Virus record (IMG/VR): IMGVR_UViG_3300010158_000187
Location: 1-35,206 of that record
From: a virus
Strand: one strand, 5' to 3'
Length of the DNA stretch: 35,206 nt
Below the pieces are notes generated by a model, which was given only the letters and a program-made list of their open reading frames with translations, was not told where the DNA came from and made no database searches. This document shows positions 19,899 to 31,213 of the stretch, one piece after another. Within the stretch, counting starts at the first letter, position 1. Every line of letters begins with the position of its first letter. The translations under genes were made by a program, and so were the position numbers.

Positions 19899-20813
19899 AT
19901 GACTATCGGATTATTGCCAAGAAAAACAAAATATTTAAATAATCGAGATTTACTAGCAGAAATACACAGAAGCAAATGCTCATATTCCAGTTTTGAAAAA
20001 CCAGAATATCACCAATACGATATTATCCTAACCAGCCTAGATAAAGTTAACATACGTACTGTTGCCGACGCCAAACGAACCCAGGCCAAACGTCTAGGAC
20101 TACACGCATTCGCAGCAGCAAGAATGTCCGGAGATAAGAAAATCAAACTGTCAGAATGCACAGCAGATTATAAAACTATCGCAAAAACGGATATAATCAT
20201 CCGGATAATGACATTTGATCACATACCGTTAGCACCGGGTCGTAAGAAAACCACTAAAACCACAGCAGACAGTCATGATAAGGTAAACTTTCCTCCTTAT
20301 CAACATTGGAAGTTTGACGATCAAGATGAATTGGTATGTATTGGTAAAAGCCATTGGAAAGGATCTGTATCCTCTGGTAAATTCAGTAAGGATCACGGAC
20401 GTATTACCGAGAATCTCGGTAAGATGTTTATTAAATTGTCCGAGCGTTATGCCCAGCGTAGCAATTGGAGAGGATATACCTATGTGGACGAAATGAAAGG
20501 TCAGGCCATCCTACAACTAAGTCAAATTGGACTACAGTTTGATGAAAGTAAATCAGAGAATCCCTTTGCTTACTATACTGCTGCCGTAACCAATTCATTC
20601 ACAAGAATTTTAAATTTAGAAAAGAAGAGTCAAAACATACGTGATGATCTGTTAGAAGAAGCGGGTCTTACTCCTAGTCTTACCAGACAAAATAGTCAAG
20701 AGTATGCTAGCGAAATTGCTAGACAGGCCGAACTATACAAAAATATGCGTATGCCCAAGAGTGAAGAAATATCCGAAGAAGAAGAAATAGAAGACGGTAA
20801 TATTGAAGATTGA
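19899..20813 (+). CDS. 55: Late-transcription sigma factor gp55-like with N-terminal extension
   Basis: 304 residues; T4 gp55 is 185. The C-terminal half (from about residue 165: RITENLGKMFIKLSERYAQR, YTYVDEMKGQAILQLSQIGL, ENPFAYYTAAVTNSFTRILN) matches the gp55 sigma region 2-like core, including the NPFAY(Y/F) segment. gp55 binds host core polymerase and recognises the TATAAATA element. The N-terminal ~155 residues contain a separate-looking block (KPEYHQYDIILTSLDKVNIR, basic segment AKRTQAKRLGLHAF, then PLAPGRKKTTKTTADSHDK) that T4 gp55 lacks. The end is very acidic (EEISEEEEIEDGN), which may correspond to the clamp-binding tail region. First gene of a five- or six-gene plus-strand operon. 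Confidence 0.88.
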   Translation: MTIGLLPRKTKYLNNRDLLAEIHRSKCSYSSFEKPEYHQYDIILTSLDKVNIRTVADAKRTQAKRLGLHAFAAARMSGDKKIKLSECTADYKTIAKTDIIIRIMTFDHIPLAPGRKKTTKTTADSHDKVNFPPYQHWKFDDQDELVCIGKSHWKGSVSSGKFSKDHGRITENLGKMFIKLSERYAQRSNWRGYTYVDEMKGQAILQLSQIGLQFDESKSENPFAYYTAAVTNSFTRILNLEKKSQNIRDDLLEEAGLTPSLTRQNSQEYASEIARQAELYKNMRMPKSEEISEEEEIEDGNIED

Positions 20814-24191: not shown

Positions 24192-24620
24192 ATGACTTGG
24201 TACCATAAAGGTTCTATAGTTACAGAACTGCCTGAAGATTGTGTGGGGTTTGTTTATCTCATCTCATGCAACATTTCTGGCAGACTCTACGTTGGTAAAA
24301 AATTAGCAAAATTTAGTCGAACCGCCTACAAGACTGTAAAGTTGAAGAACGGCACAAAAAAGAAAAAGAAAATTAGAAGCAAAATAGATAGTGACTGGCA
24401 GGAATATTACGGGTCCAGTGCGGAACTTACCGCAGACATAGAAAAATTAGGCAAAGAAAATTTCACAAGAGAGATATTACACTACTGTCGTAGTAAAGCA
24501 GAAACATCATACATTGAGGCCCGTGAACAATTCGACCGCAAAGTATTGGAATCAAACGAATATTATAACGGACAGATCTCAGTCCGTGTCCATGGCTCCC
24601 ACATAATTAAAAAACCCTAG
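24192..24620 (+). CDS. GIY-YIG family nuclease (putative)
   Basis: 142 residues, starting 3 bases after the H1-like stop. GFVYLIS (19-25) and RLYVGKK (31-37) are the two strands of the GIY-YIG core with the usual spacing. A later YIEAREQFDRKVL segment could give the metal-binding Glu. A Lys-rich insert (KLKNGTKKKKKIRSKI) interrupts the core between about residues 50 and 66. No DNA-recognition domain follows, so it resembles the small T4-like Seg/hypothetical nuclease group rather than a full homing enzyme. It is immediately followed by the structured non-coding region. Confidence 0.78.
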   Translation: MTWYHKGSIVTELPEDCVGFVYLISCNISGRLYVGKKLAKFSRTAYKTVKLKNGTKKKKKIRSKIDSDWQEYYGSSAELTADIEKLGKENFTREILHYCRSKAETSYIEAREQFDRKVLESNEYYNGQISVRVHGSHIIKKP

Positions 24621-25095: not shown

Positions 25096-25791
25096 ATGCG
25101 TATAAATGAATTACTCAGTGAAGAACAACTTGACGAAATAAGTCTCGGAAAAAGAATTGCTGCAAAAGCAGCACGATTTGCTCAAGGAGCCGGCGATGTT
25201 ATTGGCGGTACACTTGGAGGAATTGCCGGGGCATGGAACAGAGGAGAGAAGGCTTATCAAAGAGGAAAATCTGTAGTTGATCCTTCAGGCAATCCAGGAT
25301 CAGCAGGCGGAACAACCACTACTACTGCTACCGGTACTACAACAACAGGTGGAACAAACGCAGCAGTGCCGGCCGCTGCCGCAGCACCTGCAGGAACAAC
25401 AGATCCAACTGCTGCCGCAGCACCGGCTGCTGGAACAAATCCTGCTCCTGAAGCGCCGGCAGGAACAAATACAGGTGGTACCAGTTATGATACACAGGCA
25501 GGAAAACCTCAAAGTGCTCCAGGTAATAGACAAAAAGGTGATATAGTTAGATCTGGGCAAAATACATTCCAATACACAGGCGAACCTGGAAAAGAATGGT
25601 TTGTTGCCAGCGGTCCACTACAAGAACCAAATCCTCAAGCAGATAGATATAACAACATTCAAGCTGTTGGTGGTAAGAAATTTATCAGCGCAGACAATGC
25701 CAAACGCAATCTACAAGTTTCAGAGCGTAAGAAGCTGAAAAAGAAAATTGTTGCCGAATTCCACAGCAACTTCCTAGGCATGATAATTTAA
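25096..25791 (+). CDS. Candidate internal head / virion protein with capsid-targeting-like N-terminus
   Basis: 231 residues; I do not recognise a named family. The N-terminus MRINELLSEEQLDEI resembles a T4 capsid-targeting peptide: a short amphipathic helix ending in the gp21 cleavage form (L/I)-x-E (LSE or LDE). Residues 15-60 are basic and helical with a Gly/Ala-rich hydrophobic stretch (AGDVIGGTLGGIAGAW). Residues about 65-135 are a low-complexity Ala/Thr/Pro/Gly linker. The C-terminal part has a compact aromatic segment (TFQYTGEPGKEWFVASGP) and ends in a basic helix (SERKKLKKKIVAEFHSNF). It has its own late promoter, fitting a structural protein. Its stop overlaps the stop of the convergent gene. 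Confidence 0.82.
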   Translation: MRINELLSEEQLDEISLGKRIAAKAARFAQGAGDVIGGTLGGIAGAWNRGEKAYQRGKSVVDPSGNPGSAGGTTTTTATGTTTTGGTNAAVPAAAAAPAGTTDPTAAAAPAAGTNPAPEAPAGTNTGGTSYDTQAGKPQSAPGNRQKGDIVRSGQNTFQYTGEPGKEWFVASGPLQEPNPQADRYNNIQAVGGKKFISADNAKRNLQVSERKKLKKKIVAEFHSNFLGMII

Positions 25792-26006
25792 AAGAACGGA
25801 ACTCCGCTGTCTTTGGTTATCTCAAGATTCTTTTCAATAATCTTTGATATTATTTCTCTTTCTTCGTAGCTGAGCATTAGACTTTCAGTGTAGCTGATGC
25901 TACCGCGCATGTACCAACAGATTCTAAATAATTCGTCTTTTAAGGCTTTTGATTCTAGTTCGTAGTCTTTAACAGCCTGTTCAATTCCTGCTATATCAAG
26001 AATCAA
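25788..26006 (-). CDS. Second frame of the tail assembly chaperone (GT-like extension)
   Basis: 72 codons from a TTG (IAGIEQAVKDYELESKALKD ... CWYMRGSISYTESLMLSYEE ... NLEITKDSGVPFF). It has no ATG and no clear ribosome binding site. It is in the -1 frame relative to the upstream gp26/gp51-like gene, and that frame is open back through the T TTT TTC heptamer. I therefore read it as the C-terminal extension of a frameshifted fusion of about 360 residues (...STFF-RLRLLILDIAGIEQ...). The small protein itself is of a type found next to gp26-like genes in aquatic T4-like phages, from memory. An independent TTG-started product remains possible. Confidence 0.72.
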   Translation of the reverse strand: MILDIAGIEQAVKDYELESKALKDELFRICWYMRGSISYTESLMLSYEEREIISKIIEKNLEITKDSGVPFF

Positions 26007-26011
26007 AAGCC

Positions 26012-26869
26012 TTAGACGAAAAAAGTTGATGGATCAAAAGTAATAGGAACTTCTACAGTTTCACCTTTTACACCTTTTTCCTTCATTTCGTCTGTTACTG
26101 CTACTATCATGGGTTTGACAGCATTGGCATCTCTTAACATTTCTAGATGTTTCTGAATACTGTTAAAAATATCTTTGTCAATGTTTTCCACAAACTCTTT
26201 GATAAACTTAGGATCATCTGTGCTACCGTGGATGCTGTCAACCCTGCTGATACTGTCGCTGATGGTGCTTAATGTAGCATCACTTAAAGTTTTAAAACTT
26301 TCTTGGAACATTTTAACTTTATCATCATCGGTGATTTCTTTGTTGTTGACCATCTGCATAAGTTTCTGTGTTTCAAAAGTCTTGATGGCTGCTGAACTGA
26401 TCTGACGATAGGTAAGTGGTCGAACAAATACCGTTAATTCTTCATTTACTGGTACTGTGTCAGTCCAGGTAATCTGATTCATTAAACTATCCATGACCAT
26501 ACGTAGATCAACTTGATATTCTAATTCTAGATCTTCACCAAATTTAATTGGAGTTGTCATTAATTCTCCGTAGGTGGCCAAGCGAATGGCGATTAAAATC
26601 ATGTCAAGGTCAATGTTTGGAGTATTCCACGCATTTTTGATGTTGGGTACGCAGTGCTGTATAACGTCTACTACTGCTTGTCCATTCATGAGTGCGTCGG
26701 GTACTTTTAACATCAATTCATCTTTGGCTGTCATTGAATATACTGGATACTCTCCAGATTCTGAAATTTCCAAACTATCTTGCGGCCAAAATGATCCATT
26801 ACTAGGTAATCTAATATAGATTTTTGGTTGGCGCATGTACATGGACAGCGGATTTGCAGTTGAACTCAT
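26012..26869 (-). CDS. gp26/gp51-family baseplate hub assembly protein (tail assembly chaperone-like)
   Basis: 285 residues. YIRLPSNGSFWP, EYPVYSMTAKDELMLKVPDA and LMNGQAVVDVIQHCVPNIKN are hallmarks of the T4 gp26/gp51 (T4_baseplate) family; the middle has VFVRPLTYRQISSAAIKTFE. These proteins help assemble the hub and are the likely counterpart of lambda gpG-type tail assembly chaperones. It has a GGAGA ribosome binding site and an exact TATAAATA promoter upstream. A slippery T TTT TTC lies five codons from its end, leading into the downstream -1 frame. It is head-to-head with the tape-measure gene. Confidence 0.88.
   Translation of the reverse strand: MSSTANPLSMYMRQPKIYIRLPSNGSFWPQDSLEISESGEYPVYSMTAKDELMLKVPDALMNGQAVVDVIQHCVPNIKNAWNTPNIDLDMILIAIRLATYGELMTTPIKFGEDLELEYQVDLRMVMDSLMNQITWTDTVPVNEELTVFVRPLTYRQISSAAIKTFETQKLMQMVNNKEITDDDKVKMFQESFKTLSDATLSTISDSISRVDSIHGSTDDPKFIKEFVENIDKDIFNSIQKHLEMLRDANAVKPMIVAVTDEMKEKGVKGETVEVPITFDPSTFFV
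26018..26024 (-). promoter_or_regulatory. Programmed -1 frameshift slippery heptamer T TTT TTC
   Basis: In the zero frame of the chaperone gene the codons are ACT TTT TTC GTC TAA, so T TTT TTC fits X XXY YYZ exactly. Slippage gives CGT CTA AGG CTT TTG ATT, entering the 72-codon frame with no stop. The zero-frame stop follows after one codon. No strong downstream pseudoknot is obvious to me. Confidence 0.75.
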
Positions 26870-26883
26870 AGTATTTGTCTCCG

Positions 26884-26924: not shown

Positions 26925-26932
26925 TATTTATA
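26925..26932 (-). promoter_or_regulatory. Late promoter TATAAATA for the chaperone gene
   Basis: Exact match to the T4 late consensus on the minus strand (GTATATAAATACATTG), 55 bases upstream of the gp26/gp51-like ATG. Confidence 0.7.
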
Positions 26933-26956: not shown

Positions 26957-29900
26957 ATGGCAGACGTAACAGGTCAAATAATAGGCGATCCACAGAGTAA
27001 CACCAAAGATGTTCGGCTGAACAACGCAGCCACGGAGGCCACATTAAAAGCACTACTGAATACTGCTAATATAGATTCAGCAGTATTAAGAGAAATTGCT
27101 GCTAACGCAGGTGTTGACCGAGATATTTTAGCCGGTTTGGAGGCTGCTGCTGTTGCAAGTTCTGCCGGCCTCCAACAGGTTACAGTATCTACGCAGCAAT
27201 TAACTGTTTCTCAAAATAATCTAAAAGAGCATAATCGACTTGTAGATACATCATTTGCTGGATTAATTGACAGTACCCGACTATTAGCATCGGGTAATGC
27301 AACTGTAAGTGGTGTATTGGACGCATTTAAACTCTTGCCAGGGCCGTTGGGACTTGTGGCACAAGGATTTTCCGCACTAGCAGCATTCCAAGAAACCAAT
27401 ATGAAGACATATCAAACTATGTCAAGTGCTGGTGCTAACTTTGGTGGCAGTCTAACAGACATGCGATTAGCGGCACAGGGCACTTTTGTGGATTTACAAA
27501 CATTTGGAAATCTAGTTAAAAACAACAGTCAAGTTTTAGGCAGAATGGGCGGTACTGTTGATGATGGTGCTAGAGCATTTGCTGCTATGAGCAATAGTTT
27601 ATTAACTAGTCAAGCAGGTGAAAATCTGTTAGCACTGGGATATACTACCGAAGATGTTAATCAGGGTATGTTAAGTTATATAGCAACAACGGGTGGCCGC
27701 TCAAAAGAAGAAATGAAAAATACTCAGTCTATTACTGCAGCCACGTCTGAGTATCTAACAGAGTTGGATAAGTTAACACAATTTAGTGGTATTAGTAGAA
27801 AACAACAAGAAGAAGAACAAAAGAAAGCTGCTCTTAATGGTGCTTATCAACGAGCATTAGCTAACATGACAGAAGATCAAAAAGCTAGAGCGGAAATTGC
27901 TAGAACAGCAGCTGCAAATTCTGGAGTAGTAGGAGCTGCAGACGCATTAATGGCCAACGTGGCTGGTTTTCCTCCTATTACTAAAGAAGCACAACAATTT
28001 GCTGGCATGCTACCCTACGCCTATAATGGTATAGAAACGTTAGGAAATTCTGTTCGTGATGTACATGGCACAATGGCAGATACTGAAAAAGGTATTGGTG
28101 TATTCAATGAAGGAGTATATAGATCTGCAAAAGGTGCTGAAACTGCATTTAGTGCTGTGGCCATGGGTGGCAATCAGGTTGCTAATAGTGCTCTTTTAGC
28201 CGGTATTCAATTAGAAAAAAGTGGTAATAATACAGCAGAAGGAACTGCTAAGAATCTTGCCAAGGCAACAGATAATCAAAAAACTCAACAAGCAAGTCAA
28301 GCAGCCACAATGGCCAAAGCAGAAATTCAACTTAAAGAATTTGGCCTGGCTATCATGAAATTGATATCTCCAATCATAAGTGTTCTAACTCCTGTGTTGA
28401 CATACCTAGGTCCGTTGTTTATAGGATTAAGTGTCGCAGTAATGGGATATAAAGCATGGTTACTAGCTCTTGAAACTTTTGAAAGAGCCAAAGTAGCAAG
28501 AGACCTGGCTAGAGAATCAGGCGGCGGTGCTCTTACCGCTGCTAGAAACTTTGTTAATTTAGGAGGAAGTCCTGCTGCCTCGGTAGTACCGGGTGCTGCT
28601 GCTGCACCACCCGGCGGCGGTATATTGGGCGGAGTGCTGGGCAGCTTGGCCGAAGGTTTGAAAAAAATGGGTAATCCTCAAGTGTTACTGGGTATTGTTG
28701 CTGTTGGATTGCTAGGCGGTGCCATGATGGTAGCAGGTAAAGCATTTAAAGAGTTTACCGGTGTTAACTGGGGAGATGTACTGATAGGGTCTGTGGTATT
28801 GACAGCACTGTCAATTGGCGCAGCAGCATTGGTTGAGATCGCTCCTTTCATAGGCATAACTGCTGTAGCCATAGGATTGCTTGGTGGTGCTATATGGTTA
28901 CTGGCCAAGGGACTCAAAGAGTTTCCAACTTTTGCCATACCCGGTATGTCGGAAGCATTTGAAGGATTTGGAAAAATAGTCGGAACCGTATTTGGGTTTG
29001 TAGGCGATGTAGTATCAGGCTTGATAGATACTGTTAAAAAAGTATTTGGAACTGTATGGGATATCATATCATGGCCTTTTAAAATGATAGGTAATTTAAT
29101 ATCGGGTACTGTTGATGTTGTGACCAGTATACTAGGAGGACTAGTAAACATTGTCACAGGTATATTTGGTACCATGTGGAATATCGTATCATGGCCTTTC
29201 AAGCAGTTAGGTAATTTAATATCAGGCACTGTTGATGTTGTGACCAGTATACTAGGAGGAATGGTAGATATCATCACAGGTATATTTGGTCTAGTGTGGA
29301 ATATCGTATCATGGCCTTTTAAACAACTGGGTAATCTAGTATCGGGTACAGTAAGTGTTATTGCTACTATTCTAGGAGGAATGGTAGATATAGTAACAGG
29401 ATTATTTGGTATCTTATGGAACGTGGTGTCGTGGCCTTTCAAGCAGTTAGGTAATTTAATATCGGGTACAGTAAGTGTTATTGCTACTATTCTAGGAGGA
29501 ATGGTAGATATCATCACAGGTATATTTGGTCTAGTGTGGAATATCGTATCATGGCCTTTTAAACAACTGGGTAATCTAGTATCGGGTACTATTAATATCG
29601 TAACAGGAATTTTAGGCGGAATCGTAGATGGTATTTCTGCTATATTTGGCACGGTATGGAATATAATATCATGGCCGTTTAAACAATTAGGTAATCTAAT
29701 ATCAGGTACTGGTGATTCTACAACTGGACTATTTGGCGGAATGCTAAACACGGTTACAAGTATATTTGGTGCTGTATGGAATATCATATCCTGGCCTTTC
29801 AAGCAGTTAGGTAATCTAGTATCGGGCACAGTCAATGTCGTGGCCAGTATACTAGGAGGGCTAGTAAACATTGTTACAGGCATATTTGGTACCATGTGGA

Positions 29901-31213
29901 ATATTATATCCTGGCCTTTCAAACAGATAGGCAATCTAGTATCATCGGCTGTAGATAGTATCACAGGTGTATTTGGCAGCATGGTAGATGGTATTACTGG
30001 CTTATTTGGCAAGATAGGAGATGCGATATCAGCACCATTTACTTCAATTGGTAATCTAGTATCGGGTGTAGCAGATGCTGTTGCCGGTATATTTGGTGGC
30101 ATGGTAGATGGTATATCCGGCGCATTTGGTTCAGTATGGACGGTGATATCAGCACCATTTACCATGATCGGGGATTTAGTATCATCGGTTGTGGATGGTA
30201 TCACTAGTGTATTTGGTGGCATGGTAGACATTATATCTGGAGCATTTGGTACAGTATGGGGTGCGATATCATCTCCGTTTACTATGGTTGGTGATTTAGT
30301 ATCATCGGTTGTAGATGGTATCACTGGAGTATTTGGTGGAATGGTGGACAGTATCTCAGGAATATTTGGTACAGTATGGGATATTATATCATCACCATTT
30401 ACCATGATTGGTGATTTAGTATCATCGGTTGTAGATGGTATTACTGGAGTATTTGGTGGAATGGTTGACATTATCTCAGGTGTATTTGGTATAGTATGGG
30501 ATGCGATATCAGCGCCATTTACCATGATTGGTGATTTAGTATCATCTGTGTTTGATGGTATTGCCGGAGTATTCAGCGGAATAGTAGACAGTATCTCCGG
30601 TGCGTTTGGTATAGTATGGGATATAATGTCAGCACCATTTAGAATGATTGGTGATTTGGTATCATCTGTGTTTGATGGCATATCGGCTGCTATATCATTT
30701 GTGGTAGATAAACTTACCAATATACTGGGCATGATTGGCGATGTTATTGGCGGAATAGCAGGATTTGTTGGAAGTTTATTTGGCGGAGGCGATGAAGCCA
30801 AAGAAGGATCCGGACCAGGGTCACCGGAATTTACTGAGGCAACTTCTACTCTATTAGAAGCTGCTAATAAACTTGGTTCAGTAAGTGACAAACTAGCAAC
30901 TGTTAATTTAGGCCCACGACAAGATGCTCTACCCGGATCAACGGCATTTGATAGTATATTTAAAATGGCCCTAACAGCATCTTCAGTCAAGAAAGAAACA
31001 GCAGATTTGCCTCCTCTGTCAGAAGGGGCTAAAAAATTATCTGCTGGCCTGTTCGGCGATAAAGGACCTAGCCTGGAAGAAAAAACACATACTGAGCTAG
31101 TTTCCTTAAATACTACGATGAAAGATCTATTGAGATATATCAAGGATACAGCAGACAATACCAAGAAAACTCACGAGGCTACTAAAAGTCTTAACGGTAA
31201 TGCATTCGCTTAA
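26957..31213 (+). CDS. Tail tape-measure protein (gp29 role) with 14 tandem 40-residue repeats
   Basis: 1418 residues against about 590 for T4 gp29. Residues 1-450 are Ala/Gln/Asn-rich and helical. Hydrophobic segments occur near 463-498 (IMKLISPIISVLTPVLTYLG), 576-595 and 610-650. Residues 696-1255 are fourteen copies of a 40-residue unit of the form (I/V/A)FG-x-x-W-(N/D)-x-(I/V)-S-W/A/S-PF-x-x-(I/L)-G-(N/D)-L-(V/I)-S followed by a GGMVD(I/G)I(T/S)G end. The C-terminus is a helical tail. Size, hydrophobic segments, repeats and the neighbouring chaperone pair point to the tape measure, which sets tail length and is ejected into the host envelope. Identification is by architecture, not by clear homology to gp29. 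The antisense strand is open for 828 codons here as a by-product of the repeats. Confidence 0.85.
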   Translation: MADVTGQIIGDPQSNTKDVRLNNAATEATLKALLNTANIDSAVLREIAANAGVDRDILAGLEAAAVASSAGLQQVTVSTQQLTVSQNNLKEHNRLVDTSFAGLIDSTRLLASGNATVSGVLDAFKLLPGPLGLVAQGFSALAAFQETNMKTYQTMSSAGANFGGSLTDMRLAAQGTFVDLQTFGNLVKNNSQVLGRMGGTVDDGARAFAAMSNSLLTSQAGENLLALGYTTEDVNQGMLSYIATTGGRSKEEMKNTQSITAATSEYLTELDKLTQFSGISRKQQEEEQKKAALNGAYQRALANMTEDQKARAEIARTAAANSGVVGAADALMANVAGFPPITKEAQQFAGMLPYAYNGIETLGNSVRDVHGTMADTEKGIGVFNEGVYRSAKGAETAFSAVAMGGNQVANSALLAGIQLEKSGNNTAEGTAKNLAKATDNQKTQQASQAATMAKAEIQLKEFGLAIMKLISPIISVLTPVLTYLGPLFIGLSVAVMGYKAWLLALETFERAKVARDLARESGGGALTAARNFVNLGGSPAASVVPGAAAAPPGGGILGGVLGSLAEGLKKMGNPQVLLGIVAVGLLGGAMMVAGKAFKEFTGVNWGDVLIGSVVLTALSIGAAALVEIAPFIGITAVAIGLLGGAIWLLAKGLKEFPTFAIPGMSEAFEGFGKIVGTVFGFVGDVVSGLIDTVKKVFGTVWDIISWPFKMIGNLISGTVDVVTSILGGLVNIVTGIFGTMWNIVSWPFKQLGNLISGTVDVVTSILGGMVDIITGIFGLVWNIVSWPFKQLGNLVSGTVSVIATILGGMVDIVTGLFGILWNVVSWPFKQLGNLISGTVSVIATILGGMVDIITGIFGLVWNIVSWPFKQLGNLVSGTINIVTGILGGIVDGISAIFGTVWNIISWPFKQLGNLISGTGDSTTGLFGGMLNTVTSIFGAVWNIISWPFKQLGNLVSGTVNVVASILGGLVNIVTGIFGTMWNIISWPFKQIGNLVSSAVDSITGVFGSMVDGITGLFGKIGDAISAPFTSIGNLVSGVADAVAGIFGGMVDGISGAFGSVWTVISAPFTMIGDLVSSVVDGITSVFGGMVDIISGAFGTVWGAISSPFTMVGDLVSSVVDGITGVFGGMVDSISGIFGTVWDIISSPFTMIGDLVSSVVDGITGVFGGMVDIISGVFGIVWDAISAPFTMIGDLVSSVFDGIAGVFSGIVDSISGAFGIVWDIMSAPFRMIGDLVSSVFDGISAAISFVVDKLTNILGMIGDVIGGIAGFVGSLFGGGDEAKEGSGPGSPEFTEATSTLLEAANKLGSVSDKLATVNLGPRQDALPGSTAFDSIFKMALTASSVKKETADLPPLSEGAKKLSAGLFGDKGPSLEEKTHTELVSLNTTMKDLLRYIKDTADNTKKTHEATKSLNGNAFA
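29042..30721 (+). repeat. 14 x 120-base tandem repeat array in the tape-measure gene
   Basis: The unit is exactly 120 bases (40 codons) with no indels across 1680 bases. Units 1-8 carry the form W-(N/D)-x-(I/V)-S-W-P-F-K; units 9-14 change to S-(A/S)-P-F-T or R and (G)DLVSS, so there are two sub-families. The stretches at 29252-29349 and 29492-29589 are identical over 98 bases, and 29341-29390 repeats at 29461-29510. Confidence 0.95.

Follow-up and report, generated by a model that had tools for sequence, protein, structure and literature searches.

Evidence for a programmed -1 frameshift in the tail assembly chaperone gene of T4-type phages

The window analysed here, positions 1–35,206 of IMG/VR virus record IMGVR_UViG_3300010158_000187, very probably carries a T4-type phage tail assembly chaperone gene in which a programmed -1 frameshift gives a short and a long form of the protein. 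In the sequences we observed the slippery site, its conservation, coding in the -1 frame, the absence of alternative starts in several lineages, and a covarying stem; the slippage itself, its efficiency and the chaperone function are what we infer. Most ribosomes would halt at the zero-frame TAA, giving a 285-residue short form (TAC-N, the counterpart of T4 gp26), and a minority would slip one base back at U UUU UUC, presumably aided by a stem-loop ~4 nt downstream, and continue in the -1 frame to give a long form of ~360 residues (TAC-NC, gp26 plus the 'gp51' C-terminal domain). The analogy with lambda gpG/gpGT suggests a division of labor in which the short form would coat the tape measure protein and the long one would bring in tail tube subunits. 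A sequence-only reading of this DNA had proposed such a lambda G/GT-style -1 frameshift in a T4_baseplate gene, and we uphold this proposal on the conserved signal, the PF12322 match and the adjacent tape-measure gene (all for predicted products).

The chaperone gene, its slippery site and its neighbors

The features on which the analysis rests are as follows.

26012..26869, minus strand: predicted short tail assembly chaperone gene (TAC-N; gp26/gp51 family, PF12322 T4_baseplate), 285 residues, from the ORF and profile matches
26018..26024, minus strand: in-frame slippery heptamer T TTT TTC, from the sequence and 69/69 relatives
26012..26014, minus strand: zero-frame stop TAA, one sense codon (GTC) past the heptamer, from the sequence
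25788..26024, minus strand: -1 frame extension (TAC-C / T domain), 78 residues plus stop, predicted helical, from the open frame, the codon-position pattern and a model
25999..26013, minus strand: 5' arm of the predicted stem (AAGGCTTTTGATTCT), beginning 4 nt past the heptamer, from a helix search and covariation
25942..25956, minus strand: 3' arm of the predicted stem (AGAATCAAAAGCCTT), from a helix search and covariation
26879..26882, minus strand: GGAG, a Shine-Dalgarno-like site 9 nt 5' of the chaperone ATG, from the sequence
26925..26932, minus strand: TATAAATA, identical to the T4 late-promoter consensus, 55 nt 5' of the chaperone ATG
26957..31213, plus strand: predicted tail length tape measure protein, divergent neighbor of the chaperone gene, from matches to phrog_58 (6.5e-37) and other tape-measure families

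The product of the chaperone gene matched Pfam family PF12322 with 35.6 bits (curated cut-off 24.5, E-value 1e-8) and, among the PHROG families, phrog_150 'baseplate hub' (1.2e-13). Its gene has the 3' end TCA ACT TTT TTC GTC TAA, in which the heptamer (26024–26018) lies in the zero-frame phase needed for tandem -1 slippage; an in-frame T TTT TTC near the gene end had been correctly recognized in the sequence-only reading, but its distance from the stop, given there as five codons, is a single sense codon, the motif being codon 281 of 286. T TTT TTY occurs in frame nowhere else in the 18 main genes of the window, which span 10,911 codon positions. Beyond it the -1 frame is open up to the stop at 25790–25788 (FFRLRLLILD...SGVPFF, 78 codons including both Phe), as had been proposed; the accompanying statement that this frame has no ATG is true only of its first part, as there are ATG codons at positions 38 and 49, both mid-domain. 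There is also a TTG at codon 6, which in the window's own clade is closely preceded by AAGG.

The tape measure gene starts 87 bases from the chaperone gene, in divergent orientation, and its product is expected to be the chaperone's client. Profile matches also placed T4-type portal, baseplate wedge and late sigma factor genes within the window. The match of TATAAATA to the late-promoter consensus is not above chance, though its location is suggestive; a gp55-like late sigma factor is encoded at 19899–20813. Two further reading frames in this region deserve mention. The ORF at 24192–24620 (plus strand) matches PHROG families labeled NAD synthetase and homing endonuclease, of which the former is probably a mislabel, the ORF resembling a homing endonuclease gene. 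The strand opposite the tape measure repeats holds an open frame of 828 codons (28678–31164, minus strand), most likely a by-product of the codon use in those repeats.

AlphaFold modeled the short form with confidence (mean pLDDT 86.4) and the -1 domain as all helical (mean pLDDT 88.8). Among the predicted structures in BFVD, the short-form model resembles 'baseplate hub assembly' proteins from other phages. A comparison with the HK97 tail assembly chaperone 2ob9 gave a Z-score of 6.0 (rmsd 4.5, 100/107 residues), which is within the band of unrelated matches, and as chance arrangements are common at that level we do not take it as proof. Searches against the PDB identified no relevant match to the chaperone profile (by sequence), no significant match to the short-form model (by Foldseek) and no informative match to the -1 domain model. 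The short-form model also resembles four unannotated jumbo-phage proteins of 475–548 residues in BFVD (A0A191ZCG4, A0A0K2QR08, A0A1L7N169 and G4KKH9; Foldseek E-values of 1e-5 to 1e-7, TM ~0.5), from phages including Erwinia phage Special G and Ralstonia phages RSF1 and RP12; judging by the models, it is possible that these are unrecognized tail chaperones. In the alignment, several relatives and T4 gp26 have CxxC-type cysteine motifs at short-form residues ~105–120, and the window protein has none.

Conservation in relatives and in cultured phages

We identified 71 relatives in IMG/VR; those with a readable gene end, together with three isolates (PAC2, Phosso and RaK2), gave a set of 69, in which the heptamer was scored by script in 68 and by eye in one (L011). 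In all 69, T TTT TTC is in frame and is accompanied by the -1 domain, the last base of the heptamer (Z) is C, and in most of them exactly one sense codon separates the heptamer from the stop. The length of the -1 domain hardly varies (78 residues in almost all contigs), and both the FFR start of the domain and a W.MRG motif are invariant in the alignment of the relatives. Differences among the relatives in the -1 frame number 465, 261 and 843 at codon positions 1, 2 and 3, respectively, a pattern which argues that this frame is translated as protein. Eleven sequences, namely nine contigs (L036, L037, L039, L044, L046, L047, L049, L051 and L058), PAC2 and RaK2, lack ATG, GTG and TTG alike over the opening 20 codons of the -1 domain, the first ATG of the -1 frame being mid-domain or missing; in PAC2 a start codon is found nowhere in that frame.

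A similar arrangement was found in all 16 cultured phages examined besides T4 and IME13 (cyanophages, a pelagiphage, Sinorhizobium, Vibrio and Aeromonas T4-like phages, RaK2 and other jumbo phages; three are also within the 69), each having an in-frame T TTT TT(C/T/G) followed by the conserved -1 domain. Six of these (P-SSM2, S-PM2, HTVC008M, Cr30, phiM12 and PX29) have one PF12322 gene each, its end overlapped by a gp51-type domain, with T TTT TTC or T TTT TTT in frame at the junction; in these six, the phages outside T4 in which the domain was detected by phrog_634, it is always offset by -1. A junction heptamer and -1 domain are likewise present in PAC2, Phosso, RaK2, nt-1, pf16, syn9, Milchi, Atu_ph07 and S-WAM1, and in phiM9, where the heptamer is T TTT TTG. 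The phrog_634 profile had no match in RaK2, PAC2 and Phosso, in which the position and frame of the -1 domain are the same; Pfam and PHROG scans of the window -1 domain alone gave nothing useful, and an hhalign comparison between the -1 domain of the window clade and the C-terminus of cyanophage and T4 gp51 was weak (E-value 0.0014, probability 17%). The sequence-only reading had proposed checking the heptamer and the -1 register across gp26/gp51-like genes, and both are kept in the 69 relatives and in 13 more distant cultured phages; neither group contained homologs of the kind named there as counting against the shift, in which the slippery site is missing and the small gene has its own proper start.

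T4 and IME13 have no slippery site and encode gp26 plus a full-length gp51, to which the C-terminal domain is fused in frame. Both T4 gp26 and T4 gp51 match PF12322, and gp51 alone has the extra C-terminal part, assigned to PHROG 634 ('baseplate hub assembly catalyst'). Elsewhere, the records of the cultured phages give the -1 domain as a separate 'gp51', truncate it or omit it. A tblastn search with the -1 domain of S-PM2 matched 602 phage records, and among the matches listed the domain is mostly a separate overlapping gene or is unannotated; in S-WAM1 (L103, 1501–1700) it is wholly unannotated, and in Atu_ph07 (L102, 2501–2737) it is annotated from mid-domain only. Such cases suggest that many records either lack 'gp51' or give it truncated or wrongly annotated.

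A predicted stimulatory stem-loop

In the window the predicted stem is a perfect helix of 15 bp (16 counting the preceding U-A pair) with a 42-nt loop, and its conserved GGC core is 6 nt downstream of the heptamer; across sequences the stem-loop usually starts 3–6 nt past the heptamer. An ungapped alignment of 26 relatives had 90.3% of stem cells paired, with many compensatory changes at two stem positions (columns 22-73 and 23-72), and the covariation score of the stem in these relatives was 0.235, against 0.126 ± 0.012 for shuffled alignments (0/500) and ≤0.073 for slid controls. Measured against synonymous-codon nulls, stability had z < -2 in 38/47 sequences, and it was not above the null in L036, L037, L044, PAC2 and RaK2. 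The strongest helix begins 2–8 nt after the heptamer, and not at control offsets, in 51/60 sequences; by this simple helix measure no such helix was found in L039, HTVC008M, syn9, phiM9, pf16 and S-PM2, and that of L036 and L037 is weak.

Other clades build their stems from other sequence, either GGATCTCAACTT, whose 3' partner lies closer, or GCCTCCT, which pairs with AGGAGGC. In P-SSM2 (L084, ~2184–2240) an 11-bp hairpin follows the slippery site, and the annotated gp51 ATG probably sits within it. On balance we favor the view that T4-type chaperone genes share a conserved stimulatory stem-loop with its 5' arm fixed a few bases downstream of U UUU UUC, the sequence of this arm and its 3' partner being re-invented from clade to clade; the 'gp51 baseplate hub assembly catalyst' gene annotated in many cyanophage records would then be the -1 half of one frameshifted chaperone and no separate gene.

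Alternative explanations and known systems

The long form might instead arise if RNA polymerase slipped on the T6 run and added an extra U to some mRNAs, and a one-base insertion there does yield the same frame. Six T, however, is short for bacterial transcriptional slippage, and the run stays in X XXY YYZ phase, with Z = C throughout the 69 close relatives, and has a covarying stem-loop at a nearly fixed distance, as fits ribosomal slippage; we regard a transcriptional origin as very unlikely. It is, in our judgment, very improbable that the ORF past the heptamer forms a small gene of its own ('gp51'), expressed by re-initiation or coupling, even though many cyanophage records annotate it as such, some relatives have an ATG or TTG 3–11 codons past the heptamer, and the AAGG-preceded TTG of the window clade could conceivably serve as a start for the -1 ORF. 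The conserved FFR lies upstream of every possible start, so that a separately started protein would miss the conserved start of the domain; moreover, the gp51 ATG of P-SSM2 is probably inside a hairpin, in T4 the domain and the chaperone form one continuous reading frame, and in several lineages no possible start comes earlier than mid-domain (in PAC2 the -1 frame has none at all). We reject the separate gene because several lineages are without any usable start.

Finally, the frame change falls in a homopolymer, where a sequencing or assembly indel might have split one gene. Three separate metagenome contigs (L001–L003) encode a protein identical to that of the window, which makes an assembly error very unlikely, and with the same layout in 69/69 relatives and in isolate genomes the chance of such an error becomes negligible; this explanation was also rejected.

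A programmed ribosomal -1 shift, the reading we retain, has a close counterpart in lambda gpG/gpGT, where a slip into the -1 frame likewise occurs shortly before the short chaperone gene ends, the long product is a minor one and the tape-measure gene is adjacent. The lambda heptamer is G GGA AAG and its chaperone belongs to another protein family; moreover, the lambda chaperone gene is upstream of the tape measure gene in the same operon, whereas that of the window diverges from it. Neither gpG nor gpGT is in the virion (PMC5009743), and Atkins et al. (2016) described G-T frameshifting as conserved in long-tailed phages 'except T4' (PMC5009743). In a 2010 T4 review, gp26 and gp51 are hub assembly chaperones, gp51 being required but not in the final particle (PMC3004832). 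In the phage Adele TAC locus of the Vandenendeviridae/Andersonviridae there is a conserved -1 frameshift with the poly-T motif GTTTTT and an unrecognized C-terminal ORF (PMC12846349). This locus is like that of the window in its -1 frameshift, poly-T and overlooked C-terminal ORF, though it belongs to a different phage group. T4 gp26 (TAC-N) and gp51 (TAC-NC) are of the same PF12322 family as the window chaperone and likewise form a short and long pair, but T4 has two divergent genes, 26 and 51, where the window has one gene with a -1 shift. The abstract of a study by Vladimirov and colleagues is said to describe frameshifting as conserved in several T4-like groups, with T4 using genes 26 and 51. 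According to passages in two citing papers (PMC10885494, PMC12846349), this study (Vladimirov, Gautam & Davidson 2022, Virology 566:9-15) identified T4-like tail chaperones; it is cited there for T4-like phages with one short and one long fused gene (PMC10885494) and for slippery poly-T signals within T4-like TAC-N genes (PMC12846349). The novelty for T4-type phages that the sequence-only reading had implied must therefore be given up, since the biological idea was already published with the identification of these chaperones in 2022.

What may be new here is the covarying, clade-specific stem-loop and the breadth of the arrangement in jumbo and uncultivated aquatic phages. The published idea of lambda-type chaperones in T4-like phages is extended to an uncultivated aquatic lineage and to jumbo phages (RaK2, PA5oct-like phages and Atu_ph07). 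The distribution points to a history in which most T4-type lineages have one frameshifted gene, replaced in the branch of T4 by two paralogs, and the covarying stem-loop offers a direct target for measuring how the ratio of short to long form is set.
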